Source: Microbacterium sp. AK031 (GTDB lineage Bacteria; Actinomycetota; Actinomycetes; Actinomycetales; Microbacteriaceae). From it: DNA of 64,000 nucleotides. The notes beneath the pieces were generated by a model. It saw only the letters and a program-made list of their open reading frames with translations. It did not search any database and was not told the DNA's origin. Below, one piece after another: positions 46,661 to 58,632 of the stretch; position 1 is the stretch's first letter; every line of letters begins with the position of its first letter. The translations under genes and the position numbers were made by a program. The stretch is from assembly GCF_024807145.1 (NCBI RefSeq), contig NZ_JANUCA010000007.1, forward strand, positions 124,001-188,000, written 5' to 3'.

Positions 46661-48082
46661 ATGCGAACCATCATCACGCGCGCCCTCTGGGGCGTGCTGG
46701 TAGCCGGCGGGATCACCCTGCTCGGCGCCACCGCCGCGAACGCGGCAGAAACCGACGGAGAGGACGGCATCCTCTCCGGATCCCAGGCGGTCATTTCCGT
46801 CTCGGTGCCGGTGAACGTCGCCGGCAACGCCGTCTCCGTTCTCGGCACCTCCACCGTGGATGCACCGGCACCGGCACCCGAGCCCGAGCCGGCGCCGGCC
46901 CCAGAGCCGGCAGCGGCGGTCACGACGAGCGGCGCAGAGGGCATCGCGTCCGGCACTCAGGCCATCGTCGCCGTCGACGCTCCGGTGACGATCCAAGACA
47001 ATGCGGTGAGCGTCCTCGGCTCATCCTCAATCGACACCCCTGCCGCCGATTCCCAGAGCGGCGATCCCCAGTCGCCGCCGAGTGCGGCTCCCCAGACCGA
47101 TGCTCCGGAGGCAGGGGTGCCTTCCACCACCACATCGGGTGACGATTCGATCCTCGGCGGCACGCAGGCGCTGGTTCCAGTGGACGCGCCCGTCACGATC
47201 GTGGGAAACAGCATCTCAGTGCTCGGCGGCAGCGATGTCGGCCCGGCGACGTCGGCGGAACCCGGCGCGTCGGCAGACGAATCGTCGATGCCGACCGCGC
47301 CGGATGCCGTCACCGACGGGTCCGACTCGATCGCCGGCGGGACACAGGTGATCGCACCGGTCACCGCTCCGATCACTGTGACCGGCAATGCGGTCAGCGT
47401 GCTCGGCACCAGCGACGTGAGCGCGGCACCGCCGGCGTCTTCCGGGGCTGCGGCATCCGGATCACCTGGGACGGCAGAGACATCGGGCGAGTCGTCGATC
47501 CTGGGCGGCAGCCAGGTGGTCGCACCGGTCGTCGCGCCGATCTCGGTCGTGGGCAACGCCATCAGCGTGGCGGGGAAGAGTACCGTCACCGGAGATGGGG
47601 CAGCTGCCCCGACCGGCGTACCGGCGGGAGGTGACATCCTCACCTCGGGGCACGGCTCAGTGCTCGGCGGCACGCAGATCGTGGCGCCGATCAGCATCCC
47701 TCTCACGATCGGAGGGAACGCGATCTCGGTGATCGGGACGAGCACAGTCACCGATCCGGGACCGGGGACGACACCGACGGACCCGGGGACGGATCCAGGG
47801 ACTGACCCGGGCACCGACCCCGGAACGGACCCAGGGACTGACCCCGGAACGGACCCAGGGACTGACCCGGGAACGGACCCCGGAACGGACGCCGGAACCG
47901 ACCCCGGGACAGATCCGGGCATGACGCCGAACACCACTCCGAGCGCTCACGGCTCGACGGTCGCCGCATCCGGTGAACGACTCGCCACGACGGGAGGTGA
48001 TGACGCCCGCTGGCCCGCTGCCGTGGCCGTTCTGCTGATGCTGCTCGGCGCAGGGCTTGCGCTCCGCCGGCGCATGGCCTGA
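46661..48082 (+). CDS. Wall-anchored protein with six chaplin-like repeats
   Basis: A 473-residue surface protein. After a signal peptide (about 1-29) come six units of about 33 residues starting near 36, 93, 162, 222, 278 and 332, for example 'GGTQVIAPVTAPITVTGNAV' and 'GGTQIVAPISIPLTIGGNAI'. The pattern G-x-Q-V/I-x-V/A-P-x-x-x-P-x-x-V-x-G-N-x-x-S-V is that of chaplin domains, but the chaplin cysteines are missing. A (DPGT)n spacer and 'RLATTGGDDARW' with a hydrophobic segment and 'LRRRMA' give a LAxTG sortase signal. It may form an amyloid-like or hydrophobic surface layer, as long chaplins do in Streptomyces; this is inferred. Confidence 0.75.
   Translation: MRTIITRALWGVLVAGGITLLGATAANAAETDGEDGILSGSQAVISVSVPVNVAGNAVSVLGTSTVDAPAPAPEPEPAPAPEPAAAVTTSGAEGIASGTQAIVAVDAPVTIQDNAVSVLGSSSIDTPAADSQSGDPQSPPSAAPQTDAPEAGVPSTTTSGDDSILGGTQALVPVDAPVTIVGNSISVLGGSDVGPATSAEPGASADESSMPTAPDAVTDGSDSIAGGTQVIAPVTAPITVTGNAVSVLGTSDVSAAPPASSGAAASGSPGTAETSGESSILGGSQVVAPVVAPISVVGNAISVAGKSTVTGDGAAAPTGVPAGGDILTSGHGSVLGGTQIVAPISIPLTIGGNAISVIGTSTVTDPGPGTTPTDPGTDPGTDPGTDPGTDPGTDPGTDPGTDPGTDPGTDAGTDPGTDPGMTPNTTPSAHGSTVAASGERLATTGGDDARWPAAVAVLLMLLGAGLALRRRMA
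47780..47923 (+). repeat. Tandem 12-bp repeat encoding (DPGT)n
   Basis: Twelve successive 12-nt units encode DPGT (nine exact copies, then DAGT, DPGT and DPGM). The units vary at third codon positions. It is a flexible wall-spanning spacer and a site prone to length change by slippage. Confidence 0.85.
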
Positions 48083-51112: not shown

Positions 51113-51179
51113 CGAAACAGGTCGTGCGCGACGAAACAGGCCGTGGCACCACCTGTTTCGAGCGGCAAGGCCTGTTTCG
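51113..51179. repeat. 67-nt nested palindrome, copy A
   Basis: Four 9-nt blocks in the order CGAAACAGG, CGAAACAGG, CCTGTTTCG, CCTGTTTCG (51113, 51132, 51152, 51171) with spacers of 10, 11 and 10 nt. Outer blocks pair with each other and inner blocks likewise. A second copy with identical architecture lies at 57236-57302. The element is just past the 3' end of the nonulosonate operon. Confidence 0.85.
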
Positions 51180-51203
51180 GCGCGGGCTCGGACAGGCGCG
51201 GGC

Positions 51204-52601
51204 TCAGCGCCGCACGGGGTCCCGGTGCGGGGTCGGCTCGAGCGTGTAATCGGTCGTGGGGTCGGCCCAGGTGTCGGCGGTGGCGCGACCCCGGGCGCGG
51301 CGCATGCCGAGGATTCCCTGCACGAGCGGAGCGCCGACGCTGAGCGCGATGGCGCCCGCGAACGAGCGGTCCTCCGAGCCCAGCACGCTCTTGCGATGCC
51401 ATGCCGCATGGAGCGCGCCGCCACGACCCGTCGGAACGACCTTCGCTTGCAGGCGTCCCTCGCGGCGCAGCGCGACGAGCTCTTCGACGCATCGCCACCA
51501 GTTGGTGTCGGACTCCGGCTGGAAGTAGTTGTCGCGCTGCCAGCCGGCGAGCGGATGCCGGAACCGGCGCCCGATGACCTCCTCGGCCCCACCCAGCAGC
51601 CCGCTGCCCGTGAATACCGTGTTCAGCAGCGTCTTGTGCACGCCGAACGTGTCGAGCGCGATGACGGGAACGTTCTGCGCGAGCGCCTCGATCGCCGCGG
51701 TGGAGCTGACGGTCACCAGCCCTTCGGCACGGGTCAGCGCCGTCGACATCGGCTCGTGGGAGAGGACCATGTTGCGTGGACGCGCCGCCAGCAGATCGGT
51801 GTAGGCATCGCGTTCGAAGTGCGCCTCGGCCTCGCCGGGCCGCGAGCGCAGCTTGACGACGACGCGCTTGGTCGGGTCCGCATCGGCTGCACTGTGCAGC
51901 ATGTCGGCGATCTGCTCGCGCTCATGTCGCGCGGCCGGCACCAGTGCCTGAGCGGCGAACACGAGATCCGTGCCGCCGGGGCGGGCGAACGGAGCAGGAG
52001 CCAAGCGGCCGGCACGCGAGACACCACCCGCGACGGCACCGACCAGCTCGCGCTCCGCGACGCGAGCAGGTCCTGCAGTGACAGCATCCGGAGCCGTCCG
52101 CGCGAAAGGCAGCGTCGCCAGCGCGGTCGGCACCTGCATGCCGATGCGGCGGCCCAGTTCGGCGAAGGCCCGCTCCTCGCGGTGCGAGTGCACGACCATC
52201 AGGTCGCTCTCGCGTCGGTACTCGAGCGCGCCGCGCTGTGCGGGGATCGACATGCCGGGCAGTCCGCTCACCACGACCGGTCTGCGCGCCAGCCGGTCGA
52301 TCTGGCGCGCCATCAGTCGCACGAACGGTCCCCGTCCGGAGAGCACGACGACGTCGGGCTGGTGGCCAGTCAGCCACCCGCGCACCTCGTCGAAGCCGAG
52401 ACGGGTGACGTCGGCATCCGCGAAGCTCGTCCCCGCGAGGGCCGTACGCTCCTGTTCCGCACTGACGGTGAGCGGCGTGCGCACCAGCAGCATGTGGCGG
52501 CGGATGCCGGTGATGCCCGACAGCAGCGACGCCGACCATTTCACGAACGAGTCGGCATCCGCGATCGCGACGACGCGGAGTTCCAGCGTGCTGGTGATCA
52601 T
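51204..52601 (-). CDS. Putative glycosyltransferase of the nonulosonate cluster (DUF6716-like)
   Basis: A 465-residue protein with the outline of a GT-B transferase. N-terminal 'LELRVVAIADADSFVKWSAS' and 'PDVVVLSGRGPFVRLMARQI' are followed by a C-terminal domain with 'EGLVTVSSTAAIEALAQNVP', which resembles the nucleotide-sugar site of polysialyltransferase-like and capsule transferases. It overlaps the NeuB gene by 4 nt and is the last gene of the operon. The start at 52601 is fixed by that overlap. Acceptor and donor are unknown. Confidence 0.7.
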   Translation of the reverse strand: MITSTLELRVVAIADADSFVKWSASLLSGITGIRRHMLLVRTPLTVSAEQERTALAGTSFADADVTRLGFDEVRGWLTGHQPDVVVLSGRGPFVRLMARQIDRLARRPVVVSGLPGMSIPAQRGALEYRRESDLMVVHSHREERAFAELGRRIGMQVPTALATLPFARTAPDAVTAGPARVAERELVGAVAGGVSRAGRLAPAPFARPGGTDLVFAAQALVPAARHEREQIADMLHSAADADPTKRVVVKLRSRPGEAEAHFERDAYTDLLAARPRNMVLSHEPMSTALTRAEGLVTVSSTAAIEALAQNVPVIALDTFGVHKTLLNTVFTGSGLLGGAEEVIGRRFRHPLAGWQRDNYFQPESDTNWWRCVEELVALRREGRLQAKVVPTGRGGALHAAWHRKSVLGSEDRSFAGAIALSVGAPLVQGILGMRRARGRATADTWADPTTDYTLEPTPHRDPVRR

Positions 52602-53476
52602 GCTCCTGCCGGAACGCGACGCAGCTTCGCCATCGGGGCCTGCTCGCCGGGGAAGACGCGCTTGACGCCGTCGCCGAGCGCGGTCTCGATCACCCGGATG
52701 TCGCGCACGAGGTGCGAGAGACCTGTCGGCTCGAGCGATGCGGCGTGATCGGAACCCCACATGGTGCGATCCAGCGTGATGTGCCGCTCGACGGCGACCG
52801 CGCCGAGTGCGACGGCCGCGAGCGAGATCTGCAGACCGCGCTCGTGCCCCGAGTAGCCGATCGGCACACCGGGGTAGCGGTCACGGAGCGTCGTGATGAC
52901 GCGGAGGTTGGCCTCTTCCGGCTCCATCGGGTACGTCGACGTCGCGTGCATGAGCACGACCCGGTCGGTGCCGAGGGTCTCGAGCGCGCGATCGATCTGC
53001 TCGATGGTCGACATGCCCGATGAGAGGATGATGGGCTTGCCCGTCTCGCGCAGGGCGGTCAGCAGCTCGAGGTCGGTGACGCTGGCCGAGGCGACCTTGT
53101 GCGCGACGACGTTGAGCTTCTCGAGGAAGGCGACACTGGGCACATCCCACGGGGAAGCGAACCAGTCGAGTCCTCGCAGCGTAGCGTGGTCGCCGACCTC
53201 GACGTACTCGTCCTCGCCGAACTCGACGCGACGGCGATAGTCGAGGTAGGTCATCGTGCCCCACGGCGTCTCGCGAGGGACGTCGCGCATGTGCTCAGGC
53301 GTGGAGATCTCGGGGGTGCGCTTCTGGAACTTCACGGCATCCGCGCCGGCATCCGCCGCGACGTCGATGAGGCGCTTGGCGATGTCCACGTCACCGTTGT
53401 GGTTCAGGCCGATCTCAGCGATGACGTAGGCGGGTCGACCGCCCCCGATGACGCGTGATCCGATGCTGACAGTCAT
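52598..53476 (-). CDS. neuB: Nonulosonic acid (phosphate) synthase, NeuB family
   Basis: A 292-residue PEP-condensing aldolase making a nine-carbon keto acid. 'YVIAEIGLNHNGDVDIAKRL', 'AVKFQKR', 'KPIILSSGMSTIEQI' and 'YPGVPIGYSGHERGLQIS' are family hallmarks. The C-terminal SAF (antifreeze-like) domain of ordinary NeuB (about 60 residues) is absent. With the HAD phosphatase domain encoded next door, the likely product is a 9-phosphate, for example Kdn-9-P from mannose-6-P. The start at 53476 follows GGAGGACC. Confidence 0.85.
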   Translation of the reverse strand: MTVSIGSRVIGGGRPAYVIAEIGLNHNGDVDIAKRLIDVAADAGADAVKFQKRTPEISTPEHMRDVPRETPWGTMTYLDYRRRVEFGEDEYVEVGDHATLRGLDWFASPWDVPSVAFLEKLNVVAHKVASASVTDLELLTALRETGKPIILSSGMSTIEQIDRALETLGTDRVVLMHATSTYPMEPEEANLRVITTLRDRYPGVPIGYSGHERGLQISLAAVALGAVAVERHITLDRTMWGSDHAASLEPTGLSHLVRDIRVIETALGDGVKRVFPGEQAPMAKLRRVPAGA

Positions 53477-53496
53477 GGTGGTCCTCCAGTCGTCGT

Positions 53497-53548
53497 ACCC
53501 CTCATTCCTGAGTACGCCGCGACTGTGAACACCGCGCGAATGAGGGGT
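53497..53548 (-). promoter_or_regulatory. Intra-operon hairpin between the CMP-transferase and neuB genes
   Basis: ACCCCTCATTC (53497-53507) and GAATGAGGGGT (53538-53548) are perfect 11-bp inverted repeats spaced by 30 nt, filling the only sizeable gap in the operon and touching the upstream stop codon. It may attenuate or stabilise part of the transcript. Confidence 0.5.
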
Positions 53549-54741
53549 TACCGGTGTCGGTCGGCTGTCAGAACGCGCTCGATGAGCTCGCGCACCGCGC
53601 CCTGTCCGCCCGACTTGTCGAGCACGACCCTGGCGGCAGCACGCACCTCCGGATGCGCGTTCGCGACGGCCACCGGCCACCCGACGATGCGCATGGCGGG
53701 CAGGTCGTTGACGTCGTTGCCGAGATAGGCGATGTCTGCAAGGGCGATGCCGTTCTCCACCGCCCATGCGGAGAGCGCCTCCTCCTTGTCGTCGATGCCG
53801 TGCCGCACCGCAACGCGAAGCTTGTCGGCCCTGGCCCGCACGACCTGATTGACCTCGGTGGAGAGGATGAGCATCGGGATGCCGGCGCGCCTGAGCCGCG
53901 CGACCCCCATGCCGTCCTCTCTGCTGACCCTCACCTGCTCACGCCCTTCGGCATCGACCAGAGCGGTGTCGTCCGTGTGCACACCGTCGAAGTCGGTGAC
54001 GACGGCCTTCACGTCGATGCTCTCGGGCTGGTCCATGAGGGGGGCAAGAGCGGATGCCACGGCGGCATGCTGCTCGTCGTCGATCTCGACCGCGCTCAAC
54101 TCCGGAACCTCGACGATCCCCACCCGGCCGAAGAAGCGGTGCCCTCCTCGGCGGAAGCCGTCGGCCCGGAACACGTAGAACGCGCCGGTCTCGAGGTAGT
54201 GCGGCTCGCGGTCCTGGCGGCGGGGGCGGCGGGCGGCATCGTGGTTGATCGCGGCTGCTGCCTGGTCGTCGTCGCGCCGCCACAGGAATCCATACGTCTC
54301 GTGCGCGGAGAACATGCTGTCGTATCGGCCCGAGCGCACCTCGTCGACGGCCGCGTCGATACGGTCACTGGGGATGAACGGCGACGTCGCCTGGATGAAG
54401 ACGACGATCTCCACGGTCTCTCCTGCCGATTCGAGGGCATCGAGGGCGTGCAGCACGGCGCTCTCGGAGGAGGCGGTGTCCCCGGAGATCTCGTCCGGTC
54501 GACGGATGGCCCGTGCCCCGGCCGCGACACTGAGTTCTGCGATCTCGTCATCGTCGGTGGAGACGACGACGAGATCGACGTGTTCGGCAGCAGCGGCGGC
54601 TCGCACCGCACGCTGGATGAGCGGGACGCCTCCGATCCGTCGAAGGTTCTTGCGCGGCACGCCCTTCGACCCGCCGCGCGCGGGGATCACCGCGACAGTC
54701 AGGCCGCGTGCGCGCTGGTCATCATCGATGAGCTCGCTCAT
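53548..54741 (-). CDS. neuA: CMP-nonulosonate cytidylyltransferase fused to HAD phosphatase
   Basis: A 397-residue fusion. Residues 1-225 are a CMP-sialic/nonulosonic acid synthetase with 'VAVIPARGGSKGVPRKNLRR' (nucleotide-binding loop) and 'FIQATSPFIPSDRIDAAVDE'. Residues 235-397 are a KdsC-like HAD phosphatase with 'VVTDFDGVHTDD' (nucleophile Asp), 'LILSTEVNQVV' and 'IAYLGNDVNDLPAM'. One polypeptide can thus remove the 9-phosphate and activate the sugar with CMP. The ATG at 54741 overlaps the upstream stop by ATGA; a second in-frame ATG is 7 codons earlier. Confidence 0.88.
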   Translation of the reverse strand: MSELIDDDQRARGLTVAVIPARGGSKGVPRKNLRRIGGVPLIQRAVRAAAAAEHVDLVVVSTDDDEIAELSVAAGARAIRRPDEISGDTASSESAVLHALDALESAGETVEIVVFIQATSPFIPSDRIDAAVDEVRSGRYDSMFSAHETYGFLWRRDDDQAAAAINHDAARRPRRQDREPHYLETGAFYVFRADGFRRGGHRFFGRVGIVEVPELSAVEIDDEQHAAVASALAPLMDQPESIDVKAVVTDFDGVHTDDTALVDAEGREQVRVSREDGMGVARLRRAGIPMLILSTEVNQVVRARADKLRVAVRHGIDDKEEALSAWAVENGIALADIAYLGNDVNDLPAMRIVGWPVAVANAHPEVRAAARVVLDKSGGQGAVRELIERVLTADRHR

Positions 54742-56159
54742 AGCCCGCGCGCCACCTTCCATACTCGTGCGGCGCGTCGACGCGCACCTCTGAGGGTCAA
54801 CCGGATCTCCTCGGCCCTGCCCACTCCCCCCACCGACCGCAGTGCGCGACGCACGATCGGCTCGACAGGAGCGCCGGGGAGGCGGAGTTCGACGAGACGC
54901 CGGAGATCGAAGTAGCGATCCCTCTCGGCGGGATCGAATCGGTCGAGCAGTTCTTCCGCCCGCGGTCGCAGGTGCGCGGCGATCTTCGGCTGCATCGCAT
55001 ATCCCACGGCATCGATGAGCAACTGCAGTTGCGCCGGGTCGCGGTATCGGCCGTCAGTGCGGGTCAGCGCATCGACGATCGTGGCCGGTACGCGGTTGCT
55101 GTTCCCGTAGGGGGTGAGCCTGCGCAGCACGGTCTGCGTGCCGGACGACGCGATCGGGCGGTCGAACAGTGTCTGCACCGTGGGGAGGGCGGTCGAGAAC
55201 CCGGCGACGACGCCGTCGACGTCTAGTCGCTCTGCGACGAGCTCAGCCGACTCGACGCCCCGGTACTCGACGAACTCCGCCCCGTGTGCCTCTGCGCGTT
55301 CCCGCACGGCGTCGGTGACCAGCGGAGGCGCAGACGGATGCGGCTTGAAGACGATGCGCCGCGGGTTCCACGCCGCGGCGCGATTGATCATGTCACCCTG
55401 CATGGCGATCTCCTCCGCGGCCGAGACCAGCCCCAGCGCGGACAGATACTGGCCGAGCACGAGCACGGTCGGCGTGCCGTCGGCGAGCGCGTCGAGCTGC
55501 GGGTCGGCGGCGGCGGTCTCCTGCAGCACCCTGCGGAACGCGGCCGGCGGTACCGGCATCCGCTGTGCGCCGTCATCGCGAGACCGAGCCTGCGGCATGA
55601 GACTTAGGCTGCCTGGCTCGGTCTCGCGCGGCAGGGTCGGTCTCGCACCGCCGAGCACGAGCGGCTCCACACCGGGCACGACGTCGGCGTAGACGACGCG
55701 GCCGACCCGTTCGACGACGGTGCGCGGCAGCTTCACGCGCATCGGCGAGTAGGTCATCAGGCCGTCGCCGATGATCGTGATGCGCGCGTTCGGAAACAGC
55801 GACAGCAGGGTGCGCGCCGGGGCGACCTGCGGGCTCTGCACGAACAGCTCCAGGTCGTCGTCGAGGTTCCAGGCACGCGAGAGAAGGCGCTTCAGGATGG
55901 GGAAGTCAGCCGCCACGGGATGCCAGGAACTCGGATGCAGCGGCGAGAGGATCTCGTCGAGCGGCTCGATGCGATCGAAGCGCGCACACAGCGACCGGAG
56001 GTTGGGCTGCTCGTGGATCGCGAGGCTCGTCTCCGGTATCCGTGCGGAGTTCACGGGCACGAGCACCCGCTCCTCACCCGCCTCGATGAGTCCCTCGTCG
56101 AGTGCGGCCGAAGCTGTGGTGAGTCCGTACGCGCTGTGCAGAATGAAGAGCTGGGTCAT
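54738..56159 (-). CDS. Polysialyltransferase-family glycosyltransferase
   Basis: A 473-residue protein of the alpha-2,8-polysialyltransferase (POLYST) type. It opens with 'QLFILHSAYGLTTASAALDE', and the CMP-sugar-binding motifs are 'ARITIIGDGLMTYSPMR' and 'RRIVFKPHPSAPP' (HP motif) followed by 'VAGFSTALPTVQTLF' (Ser-Thr motif). It would polymerise the CMP-activated nonulosonic acid. It overlaps genes on both sides by ATGA. Confidence 0.82.
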   Translation of the reverse strand: MTQLFILHSAYGLTTASAALDEGLIEAGEERVLVPVNSARIPETSLAIHEQPNLRSLCARFDRIEPLDEILSPLHPSSWHPVAADFPILKRLLSRAWNLDDDLELFVQSPQVAPARTLLSLFPNARITIIGDGLMTYSPMRVKLPRTVVERVGRVVYADVVPGVEPLVLGGARPTLPRETEPGSLSLMPQARSRDDGAQRMPVPPAAFRRVLQETAAADPQLDALADGTPTVLVLGQYLSALGLVSAAEEIAMQGDMINRAAAWNPRRIVFKPHPSAPPLVTDAVRERAEAHGAEFVEYRGVESAELVAERLDVDGVVAGFSTALPTVQTLFDRPIASSGTQTVLRRLTPYGNSNRVPATIVDALTRTDGRYRDPAQLQLLIDAVGYAMQPKIAAHLRPRAEELLDRFDPAERDRYFDLRRLVELRLPGAPVEPIVRRALRSVGGVGRAEEIRLTLRGARRRAARVWKVARGL

Positions 56160-57136
56160 CTCGCGTGTCCCGCCTCACGCAGGGTCCGCGCGAGCACACG
56201 TCGCTTGGATCCTTCCAGCCGCCCTAGAGCGCGCGCGACGTCGGCGGGAGGAAGAGTGGCGAGCAGGTCGCGGATACTGCCGCGCATCTCGCGCCGCAGC
56301 GGGGGCGCCATGCGCCTGGACCGCACGAAGTGATGCGAACTCAGCGCGAGCCCCGTGCGCACCACCTTCGGCATGAAGCGCTGCGCCTCGGCATCCTGCT
56401 CCACGATCTCCACCACCTGCGCGAGCGCACGCGGAAAGTCGAGCTGGCGCCGGTCCCGCACCTGGGTGAGCGAAGTCGCGATGCCGCGCCGGTAGAGCAT
56501 CGCCGGGGCATCGACGGCCGCGAATGACGACGCCTGCAGGTGCAGTCGCCAGATCCATGGCCGGTCCTCTGCGGTGAAGAGCCCTTCCGGGAAGGCGGCG
56601 AGCCCCTGGTCGATGATGCGCCGGTGGAAGATGCCGGCCCAGGCGTACGGGTAGTCGACCATCGTCGTGTCGTCGGACGGCAGGATCGCGTCGCGAGGGG
56701 ATGCGACGACCCCGCGCCAGGCGAAGGGGGCCCGCACGGTCTTGCGCGCAGAGCCGGTGACGCGCACGTGGTCGGTGCGGAGGAAGTCGCATCCGAGTTC
56801 GCGCAGCCGTGCGGCGAGCACCTGCAGCCGGCGCGGCTGCATCCAGTCGTCACCGTCGATGAAGCAGAACGCGTCGCCTTCGACATGAGCGAGGCCCTGG
56901 TTGCGCGCACTCGCCAGCCCGACAGGTCGGGGGTTGACGAGCACCTCGGCGTGCGCGAAGCGTTCTGCGTAGCCGCGCATCTGATCGCCCGTGCCGTCGC
57001 TCGAGCCGTCATCCACCGCGACGAGCTTCAGCGCGGCCGGATCGTCGAACTGCCGCAGCAGCGTCTCAAGAGTCGTGCCGATGTAGGGCGCAGCATCCTT
57101 CGCGGGAAGGATGACGGTGACGAGCGGTGTGCGCAC
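56156..57136 (-). CDS. Family 2 glycosyltransferase
   Basis: A 326-residue GT-A transferase: 'VTVILPAKDAAPYIGTTLET', 'LVAVDDGSSDGTGDQMRGYA', 'ASARNQGLAHVEGDAFCFID' and the DxD in 'FIDGDDWMQ'. The GTG at 57136 is chosen because the GT2 fold begins three residues later and GGGAG lies 4 nt upstream; the much longer frame runs through the palindromic repeat. It is the first gene of the five-gene operon and probably adds the primer or a side sugar. Confidence 0.85.
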   Translation of the reverse strand: MRTPLVTVILPAKDAAPYIGTTLETLLRQFDDPAALKLVAVDDGSSDGTGDQMRGYAERFAHAEVLVNPRPVGLASARNQGLAHVEGDAFCFIDGDDWMQPRRLQVLAARLRELGCDFLRTDHVRVTGSARKTVRAPFAWRGVVASPRDAILPSDDTTMVDYPYAWAGIFHRRIIDQGLAAFPEGLFTAEDRPWIWRLHLQASSFAAVDAPAMLYRRGIATSLTQVRDRRQLDFPRALAQVVEIVEQDAEAQRFMPKVVRTGLALSSHHFVRSRRMAPPLRREMRGSIRDLLATLPPADVARALGRLEGSKRRVLARTLREAGHAR

Positions 57137-57235
57137 AGGTCTCCCGGTGGGTCGGTGGCGTCCGGAATGGTCGCACCCGCACCTTGCCGCCCGGTGGCGC
57201 CGCGGTGAACGGCGGGTATCTCTCGAACCGCCGGG

Positions 57236-57302
57236 CGAAACAGGACTTCCCGCGCGAGACAGGACGTGGCACGCCCTGTCTCGTACGACAAGACCTGTTT
57301 CG
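57236..57302. repeat. 67-nt nested palindrome, copy B
   Basis: Same 9-10-9-11-9-10-9 architecture as copy A. Outer blocks are CGAAACAGG (57236) and CCTGTTTCG (57294), and inner blocks are CGAGACAGG (57255) and CCTGTCTCG (57275). Relative to copy A both inner blocks changed together, so pairing is kept. It lies just upstream of the nonulosonate operon, whose 3' end holds copy A. Confidence 0.85.
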
Positions 57303-57489: not shown

Positions 57490-58632
57490 GTGAGCATGCC
57501 CCCTCCGCAACCGCTGACCTTCGACGCCCGCGCCCTCACCGAGCCGGTCGATGCGAAAGCCGTGAGCGCGTTCGCCGCGGAGATGAAGGCTCGTCGCCGT
57601 GGATCGGTCCAGGCATCGACCGTGATCGCGATAGTGATCGCGATCATCGCCGTGCTCGTCATGGTGCCGATGATGTTCGTGCTCATGGTCACGCTGGCCA
57701 CCGGCCGCGATTCCCTCATCGCCATGCTTCCGCTGCTGCTCATCGCGCTCGTGGCGCTCGGAATCGGGATCGCGGCGTGGTCGTCCGTTCGGCGTCGGCG
57801 CGTCGAGAGGTACCGGCTCAGTCGCTTCGCCGCGGCGAACCACATGACCTACGAGGATCAAGTCGACGACCCGCCGCTCCCCGGAATGATCTTCACTCTC
57901 GGCCGCTCGCGCAAGGCGGAGCAGCTCGTCCGCGGTCACTCACCCCGATTCGTGGAGTTCGGCAACTACCAGTACACGACGGGCTCGGGGAAGAACTCGA
58001 CGACGCACAAGTGGGGCTACGTCGCCGTCAAGCTCGACGTGCCGCTGCCGAACATCGTGCTCGATGCCCTCGGCAACAATGCACTGTTCGGCACGAACCT
58101 GCCGGCGTCGTTCCACAAGGAGCAGCGGCTCTCTCTCGAGGGCGACTTCGACAAGTACTTCACCCTGTACTGCCCGGCCGGCTACGAGCAGGACGCCCTG
58201 TACCTGTTCACGCCCGACATCATGGCGCGCTTCATCGACAACGCCGCGCAGCTCGATATCGAGATCGTCGATGACTGGCTGTTCCTCTACACGAAGCGCG
58301 AGGCGTCGACGCTCGATCCGAACACCTGGGCGTGGCTGTTCGGCGCCGTCGGGGCCCTAATCACGAAGTTCGACCAGTGGGCGAGGTGGCGCGATGACCG
58401 CCTGCTCACAGAACAGGGTCGCACGTACTCGCACGCGCAGGCGGCGGCTCCTCCTCCTGGACATGCGCCGGCTGCGCCGTCTCTGCCGTTCGCCGCTCCG
58501 GTGGGGATGCTGACGCCGCCGCCCGGTGTCGCACAACAGGGGCGACGGCTGAAGCGCAGCGGGCGCTGGGTGCCGATCGTGATCGTGGCGGTCTTCGCGA
58601 TCGGCTGGTTCTGGACCCGAACCCTGTCCTGA
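57490..58632 (+). CDS. Membrane protein of unknown function (DUF3137-like outline)
   Basis: A 380-residue protein. Two hydrophobic segments lie at about 45-70 and 77-98, a large soluble domain follows ('RFVEFGNYQYTTGSGKNSTT', 'KYFTLYCPAGYEQDALYLFT'), then a Pro/Ala-rich linker and a C-terminal hydrophobic end ('WVPIVIVAVFAIGWFWTRTL'). The soluble part resembles membrane proteins with a DUF3137-type domain, but I am not sure. The GTG at 57490 follows TAGCGT by 6 nt, suggesting a leaderless mRNA. Confidence 0.65.
   Translation: MSMPPPQPLTFDARALTEPVDAKAVSAFAAEMKARRRGSVQASTVIAIVIAIIAVLVMVPMMFVLMVTLATGRDSLIAMLPLLLIALVALGIGIAAWSSVRRRRVERYRLSRFAAANHMTYEDQVDDPPLPGMIFTLGRSRKAEQLVRGHSPRFVEFGNYQYTTGSGKNSTTHKWGYVAVKLDVPLPNIVLDALGNNALFGTNLPASFHKEQRLSLEGDFDKYFTLYCPAGYEQDALYLFTPDIMARFIDNAAQLDIEIVDDWLFLYTKREASTLDPNTWAWLFGAVGALITKFDQWARWRDDRLLTEQGRTYSHAQAAAPPPGHAPAAPSLPFAAPVGMLTPPPGVAQQGRRLKRSGRWVPIVIVAVFAIGWFWTRTLS

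Follow-up and report, generated by a model that had tools for sequence, protein, structure and literature searches.

Palindromes around a nonulosonate-type operon in Microbacterium sp. AK031 as probable solo copies of the ends of a small nuclease-gene unit

This study concerns a family of 67-nt palindromes that was noticed at two places beside a nonulosonate-type operon in a 64,000-nt stretch (hereafter the window) of the 3.41-Mb genome of Microbacterium sp. AK031. We found that these palindromes are dispersed through the genus and are associated with one gene family, predicted to encode a nuclease-like protein, which they almost always flank on both sides. We therefore consider it likely, at a probability of about 0.7, that the palindromes are solo, non-autonomous copies of the terminal or target element of a small mobile unit that carries the nuclease-like gene. 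They look like the debris of a mobile element rather than the ends of an operon. At the level of sequence, comparison of genomes showed the family itself, its flanking of the gene, the matching of palindrome subfamilies to their units, and precise presence or absence, for solo copies as well as for the entire unit.

The palindrome family and the gene that it flanks

The coordinates and layout that an earlier sequence-only reading had assigned to the two palindromes (copies 1 and 2; Table 1) proved exact, with eight 9-mers starting at 51113, 51132, 51152 and 51171 and at 57236, 57255, 57275 and 57294 in a 9-10-9-11-9-10-9 arrangement. A single 9-mer, with up to one mismatch allowed, is not enriched in the window (34 matches against 42.8 expected), so that the non-random part is the four-box arrangement. 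A strict three-box pattern occurs at 5 places in the AK031 genome and the same pattern reversed at none. The whole-genome count that had been suggested as a check on the earlier reading was carried out with a covariance model built on AK031's own copies and gave 17 places. One of these is a third copy inside the operon (copy 3), and the earlier description of two copies bracketing the operon was accordingly abandoned. Within the window, Rfam yielded no match at gathering score.

A genus-wide model has matches in 205 of 247 Microbacterium genomes at E ≤ 1e-4. The element keeps a fixed layout of 67 nt, with a few copies of 66 and 68 nt, and carries four boxes, CGARAC at positions 1-6 and 20-25 and GTYTCG at 43-48 and 62-67, whose intervening bases vary by species. 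Of 18 genomes examined more fully, with up to 150 candidates per genome scored, the richest has 129 strand-hits, or about 65 copies. Across a collection of 84,980 species the four-box pattern was found in at least 117 stretches, against a chance expectation of about 0.015 places by our own estimate, which assumes even base use. Among the matches listed, 100 of the 117 stretches are titled Microbacterium (counted by eye), and the remaining 17 comprise 10 from two unplaced actinobacterial metagenome-assembled genomes, three from Microbacteriaceae bacteria, one each from Humibacter and Rothia kristinae, and two filed under Stenotrophomonas. The last two are contigs of Stenotrophomonas maltophilia P13 (L091 and L186) that bear elements and align to Microbacterium DNA, and are probably contamination of that assembly. 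A phage origin was rejected, as the viral_contigs collection holds neither a four-box match nor a relative of the nuclease-like protein. Tandem clusters of three or four elements, spaced at about 110-215 nt, were seen at L063 (1501-1927), L076 (1501-2076), L112 (3417-3954) and L295 (1120-1451).

Clustering of the proteins encoded near elements singled out one family, all 12 members of which lie no more than 300 nt from an element, and a broader search among the fetched loci recovered 13 loci of this nuclease-like family, each no more than 97 nt from an element. As those loci had been fetched for their elements, we searched the 247 genus genomes by protein alignment instead, which gave matches in 217 at E ≤ 1e-20, weak paralogs included. 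Reading 69 genes chosen by protein similarity (the first 30 loci and 39 of the next 41 listed matches, G214 and G198 being left out), we found an element on both sides of 66, or of 61 of 64 when the five founding genes are excluded. One element lies about 80-240 nt before the gene and the second at or near its stop codon, and the 66 units so delimited measure 1157-1446 nt, about 1.2 kb end to end. By both flanks the 69 units fall on about 10 sites (37, 17, 6 and 3 loci and six single ones), or on 6 sites by either flank. As the sites are few and two of them are widely shared, by 37 and 17 loci, the gene is mostly inherited in place.

The two elements of a unit resemble each other, agreeing at a median of 53 of 67 positions, compared with 35 between units. 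Two genomes have two complete units each, of different subfamilies, with an agreement of 51-57 within a unit and 30-33 between units. Solo elements follow the same pattern: 27 of 29 are nearest to the gene-flanking elements of the genome in which they reside, both misses being from M. telephonicum. At least 10 strand-hits were found in 118 of 154 genomes with a strong gene match versus 23 of 93 others, counted among the best 20 candidates per genome and with kinship ignored. In another Microbacterium locus (L298, genome G043), the family gene stands between near-identical palindromes of quite different sequence (TCCACAAGTCTTCACCGAGTCC...), which score just 23.7 and 27.1 as 67-nt elements.

The whole unit is present or absent as a block. 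Between map and the thioredoxin gene, 19 genomes lacking a strong gene hit (10 without a hit and 9 with a weak hit whose place was not read) have a gap of 20-229 nt and no element, and the 14 unit-bearing loci compared, out of 17 units at this site, measure 1355-1930 nt, with the gene parallel to map in six and antiparallel in eight. A twentieth genome picked for lacking a strong hit (G030) stands outside the 19, as a decayed unit of 847 nt was found in it. AK031 also has a decayed unit here, of 923 nt (contig C2), in which a gene split over frames lies between two decayed palindromes. Since this is the only remnant of the family read in AK031, copies 1 to 3 of the window are probably relics.

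Solo copies, too, are cleanly missing at orthologous sites, namely copy 3 and the elements at L218:2643 and L090:2528; the pairs L086/L156 and L073/L141 were left out as too divergent to read. Copy 3 is shared with G334 and G143 and is missing from the orthologous open reading frame (ORF) of G125, G146, G194 and G013; the inserted stretch measures 72 nt in AK031, 75 nt in G143 and 78 nt in G334. The intergenic slot of copy 1, which lies 40 nt past one stop codon and 24 nt from the other, is occupied in two relatives (G220 and G125) by elements of other subfamilies. Copy 2 has a weaker counterpart at a roughly equal place in G143 (L200, 8563-8629).

Placement and folding of the palindromes

Convergent gene pairs enclose 82 of 195 elements, codirectional pairs 69 and divergent pairs 14, and a further 19 elements are inside genes and 11 at locus edges, whereas the 806 background gaps of the same loci comprise 168 convergent, 439 codirectional and 199 divergent gaps; these counts come from our own simple gene caller and from loci fetched for their elements or region, and describe the elements rather than the genomes. 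Elements sit mostly right behind stop codons, in convergent or codirectional gaps, and in convergent gaps the median distance to the nearer stop is 19 nt.

This placement and the strong folds of the palindromes speak for bidirectional transcription terminators, or for mRNA 3'-end hairpins retained for that role, and paired RNA terminators had been among the earlier suggestions for the window copies. A T-rich tail (at least five T in the 8 nt after the element, on either strand) was, however, found in 0 of 190 elements, which speaks against intrinsic terminators, and one of the two window copies that prompted the suggestion lies between divergent genes. Nor does a terminator need a fixed 67-nt layout with four conserved boxes, and the flanking of a single gene family and the insertions within ORFs also stand against this function. 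We regard it as quite unlikely that the elements are maintained for termination; a secondary use of the palindromes as terminators may occur. A terminator-like call at 57248-57264 on the minus strand falls within copy 2 and is part of the palindrome, and between 50900 and 57600 there are 2 terminator calls against 1.2 expected.

When folded on both strands, copies 1 and 2 were each more stable than all 200 of their shuffles (z from -4.2 to -7.9), with Watson-Crick pairs at 25 of 33 positions in copy 1 and 27 of 33 in copy 2; as the spacers pair too, each palindrome is one long hairpin. A change on both sides of the inner stem between these two copies had been taken as covariation, and hence as a sign of selection for pairing. 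Among 13 copies from AK031 itself, there is no excess of pairing over shuffled alignments (80.6% of cells paired versus 81.0%, covariation 0.124 versus 0.116), so the change seen between two copies is not evidence of such selection, and within-genome covariation was dropped as evidence of structure. The pattern is that of decaying copies of one master sequence. Across the genus the claim holds strongly: for 33 diverse copies, seven from AK031 and 26 from other genus genomes, 88.1% of cells are paired versus 67.7% when shuffled and the covariation score is 0.511 versus 0.163, neither value being attained in 500 shuffles, which ignore kinship.

The suggestion that the palindromes are REP-like (REP, repetitive extragenic palindrome) pointed in the right direction, in that they are dispersed, lie mostly past stop codons and reach about 65 copies in the richest genome. 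Palindromic form, dispersal and placement at gene ends are shared with REPs as described in PMC3733652, and would suit classical REP or REPIN sequences mobilised by a REP-associated tyrosine transposase (RAYT) of the Y1 type. The search for a RAYT, which had been proposed as a check, found Y1_Tnp (PF01797) in one of 247 genus genomes (L219, G041:C15) and not in AK031; what the elements flank instead is the nuclease-like gene of another family. The REP tag GTAG directly adjoins 0 of 190 elements and CGTC 2 of 190. As the gene is not a RAYT and the tag is lacking, membership in the REP/RAYT class fails. Mobilisation by a RAYT is refuted for the genus, as far as PF01797 detects RAYTs, and we hold it to be exceedingly improbable.

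The protein, its proposed role and the alternatives

The protein has about 320-345 residues and, by model, an AbiEi-like N-terminal half followed by a nuclease domain like those of I-Bth0305I and Vsr. An AlphaFold model of the L171 protein, from Microbacterium sp. cf332 (gene at 205-1227 of L171, minus strand), built on nine sequences (pLDDT 85.1, pTM 0.83), was compared with known structures by an aligner that warns that Z scores below 8 may mean merely a shared arrangement. Residues 193-296 matched the catalytic domain of I-Bth0305I (3r3p) at Z 9.6, NGO0050 (3hrl) at Z 8.8 and Vsr (1cw0) at Z 8.0. A GExDGxxK motif is present in all 69 genus genes, in 60 by pattern and in nine by eye, and a looser pattern matches 18 of 21 homologs outside the genus. 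PADLOC reports AbiEi in the N-terminal half of four proteins (E 7.3e-11, 1e-9, 8e-6 and 0.002), and one of seven proteins exceeds the Pfam cut-off for AbiEi_1. No transposase family was matched in Pfam (seven proteins) or NCBIfam (six proteins), and the Protein Data Bank (PDB) holds no sequence relatives of the protein.

Across the order, 108 of 297 genomes hold homologs at E ≤ 1e-30, and 13 of these 108 belong to Microbacterium. For 15 of 20 homologs outside the genus, the similarity between left and right flanks exceeds the maximum of 80 control genes (21 loci were considered, L313 being dropped for its short flank, and the controls are Microbacterium loci). These flanking repeats differ in sequence from the 67-nt element, and at four loci (L311, L314, L317 and L307) they include palindromes of 60-81 nt on both sides of the gene. 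We consider it an even question whether these genes form a class of mobile elements across the actinobacterial order, in which a homing-type nuclease fused to an AbiEi-like DNA-binding half recognises a non-coding palindrome and drives its propagation, with a separate palindrome subfamily for every gene. Such a class would add a third route to populations of short sequences within a bacterial genome, next to RAYT/REPIN and to the homing of introns or inteins.

If the proposed reading is right, the mobile unit would consist of a palindrome, some 80-240 nt, the gene for the AbiEi-like and EDxHD/Vsr-like protein, and a second palindrome. The repeated CGAGAC boxes would most likely serve the protein as binding sites on palindromes of its own subfamily, which it would cut or nick, starting the spread, and copies would then enter intergenic slots, mostly just behind stop codons, through repair or hairpin-mediated copying. 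This mobilisation by the nuclease, including box recognition, cleavage and the copying route, is our inference. Much as in RAYT/REPIN systems, the gene would for the most part be inherited vertically at a few chromosomal sites, and the solo palindromes would meanwhile increase in number and diverge; once the gene is lost they would scatter and decay, as in AK031.

Two alternatives take the protein as their starting point. If it were an AbiEi-type transcriptional regulator, it would act on the flanking palindromes as operators and the solo copies would mark its regulon, as the AbiEi-like half and the element about 80-240 nt before the gene would allow. Set against this are the second element at or near the stop codon, the scarcity of elements in divergent gaps (14 of 195, versus 199 of 806 background gaps) and their preference for gene ends, the 19 of 195 elements within called genes, and the retention of the nuclease fold and motif, and we think a regulator unlikely. 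The protein could otherwise be part of a nuclease unit useful to its host, such as a toxin-antitoxin, defence or addiction system, with the palindromes as protected sites. AbiEi is a type IV antitoxin family, and the PADLOC matches and the mostly conserved sites would suit such a unit. A unit of about 1.2 kb, however, leaves room for little beyond one gene and is present or absent as a block in either orientation, which makes a host-serving system, to our minds, rather improbable.

Several observations weigh against the mobile-unit explanation. Neither movement nor binding nor cleavage was observed. The fold assignment is built on a nine-sequence model with Z scores of only 8-10; Foldseek returned no match for the same model at E ≤ 0.001 and ranked Vsr at E 4; and residues 13-190 match the AbiEi antitoxin 6y8q loosely (Z 8.4, root-mean-square deviation 6.3 Å), in a half of the modelled protein that would also suit a regulator. 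The 69 units are not independent, most sharing ancestry, and three of the 69 genes have an element on one side, two upstream and one downstream. For only 38 of 66 units does the right element rank first or joint first among the matches to its left-hand partner, near relatives sharing the site. The gene stretch contains an internal stop within the span read in 11 of 69 cases, and R2 matches at E ≤ 1e-4 are lacking from 11 of 154 strong-gene genomes yet numerous in 23 of the 93 others. No direct-repeat signal of target-site duplication was found over 190 elements, whose old copies could have lost a duplication, and 5 of 20 homologs outside the genus fall at or below the control maximum. The sequence flanking the 190 elements reads CCG and CGG with a weak palindromic extension, and an 8-bp near-duplicate noted by eye beside the G143 ortholog of copy 3 found no support among them.

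By analogy, we read the arrangement best as a REPIN/RAYT-like system in which an unrelated nuclease takes the place of the RAYT. PMC3116915 describes how, in RAYT/REPIN, dispersed palindromes stand next to a cognate gene. In PMC3733652, GTAG REP palindromes are tied to a single kind of enzyme, the tyrosine transposase RAYT, and CGTC REPs are described as lacking a dedicated transposase. As in those systems, the Microbacterium palindromes are dispersed at gene ends, the gene is for the most part inherited together with cognate elements at its side, and different genes in one genome have different subfamilies. Unlike RAYTs, the protein has by model an AbiEi-like/EDxHD nuclease fold rather than that of a Y1 tyrosine transposase, and unlike REPs of 20-40 bp, the element has 67 nt with four boxes and belongs to another lineage. 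The predicted C-terminal fold resembles the EDxHD homing endonuclease I-Bth0305I and Vsr. According to PMC3943268, I-Bth0305I acts as a dimer on a target of nearly 60 bp, close in length to the four-box palindrome. In contrast to I-Bth0305I and Vsr, the nuclease domain is fused to an AbiEi-like half and flanked by its presumed target palindromes. The N-terminal half resembles AbiEi antitoxins by PADLOC profile and model; unlike them, the protein has a nuclease-like domain, and the unit has little room for an AbiEii partner. A gene between two similar terminal repeats, with short gene-less relatives, recalls insertion sequences and miniature inverted-repeat transposable elements, from which the unit differs in having a whole palindrome at either end, no signal of target duplication and no match to a transposase family of Pfam or NCBIfam.

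We found no earlier description in our searches, which covered open-licence papers of PubMed Central. Were our reading correct, a second, unrelated gene would stand in a REP-like arrangement, implying that such systems arose more than once and providing a separate case in which to test why bacteria retain them. It would also provide a likely target, the four-box palindrome, for an uncharacterised protein family that is widespread in the order (108 of 297 genomes), and would account for many scattered hairpins in Microbacterium genomes.

The nonulosonate-type operon and its surroundings

The earlier reading had also offered the palindromes as the recombination ends of a mobile cassette around the operon, and had proposed to check whether the operon is present or absent precisely between them. 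We therefore read 20 relatives around the ssb locus. An operon that aligns with that of the window is found close to the ssb cluster in L199, L200, L202, L204, L206, L210 and, up to the contig end, L218, and in L208 its first part lies about 10 kb away. In ten relatives (L201, L203, L209 and L211-L217), an ORF of about 366 aa is followed by a 380-aa gene (57490-58632 in the window) with no aligned operon between them. The gene order beside the operon is itself variable, as the ORF of about 366 aa is unaligned in L199 and L200 and the 380-aa gene is on the opposite side in L210.

That some relatives have the operon, and that none was found between these two neighbours in other genomes, is what a cassette would give. 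In L206 and L210, however, the operon is present and the stretch read is free of elements, and in L204 the operon borders are element-free; the elements are therefore not the ends of the operon. Copies inside the operon in three genomes, including the third copy in the window, and the spread of copies through genome and genus also stand against cassette ends. The orthologous regions refute them for this genome set, and we regard them as very improbable. The operon is a presence/absence locus independent of the palindromes, that is, a variable host region outside the mobile element.

Table 1. Features of the window discussed in the text
Feature	Position	Strand	Description
Copy 1	51113..51179	.	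67-nt four-box palindrome, CGARACAGG subfamily, between convergent genes; 9-mer positions and covariance-model match
Copy 2	57236..57302	.	Palindrome, CGARACAGG subfamily, between divergent genes
Copy 3	55579..55645	.	CGAGACCGA subfamily; in-frame insertion within polysialyltransferase-type ORF
Nonulosonate-type operon	51204..57136	-	Five genes by family matches: DUF6716 putative glycosyltransferase, NeuB, cytidylyltransferase+HAD, polysialyltransferase, GT2
ORF bearing copy 3	54738..56159	-	A-2,8-polysialyltransferase family (PF07388)

The window has three elements within 6.2 kb (51113-57302), compared with an average of about one per 200 kb in the AK031 genome, and the same region holds two to four elements in G125, G220 and G143 (L202, L218 and L200), so that the operon region looks like a hot spot for elements. 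Elsewhere in the window, the ORF at 46661-48082 encodes a putative secreted or surface protein with long DPGT repeats near its C-terminus.

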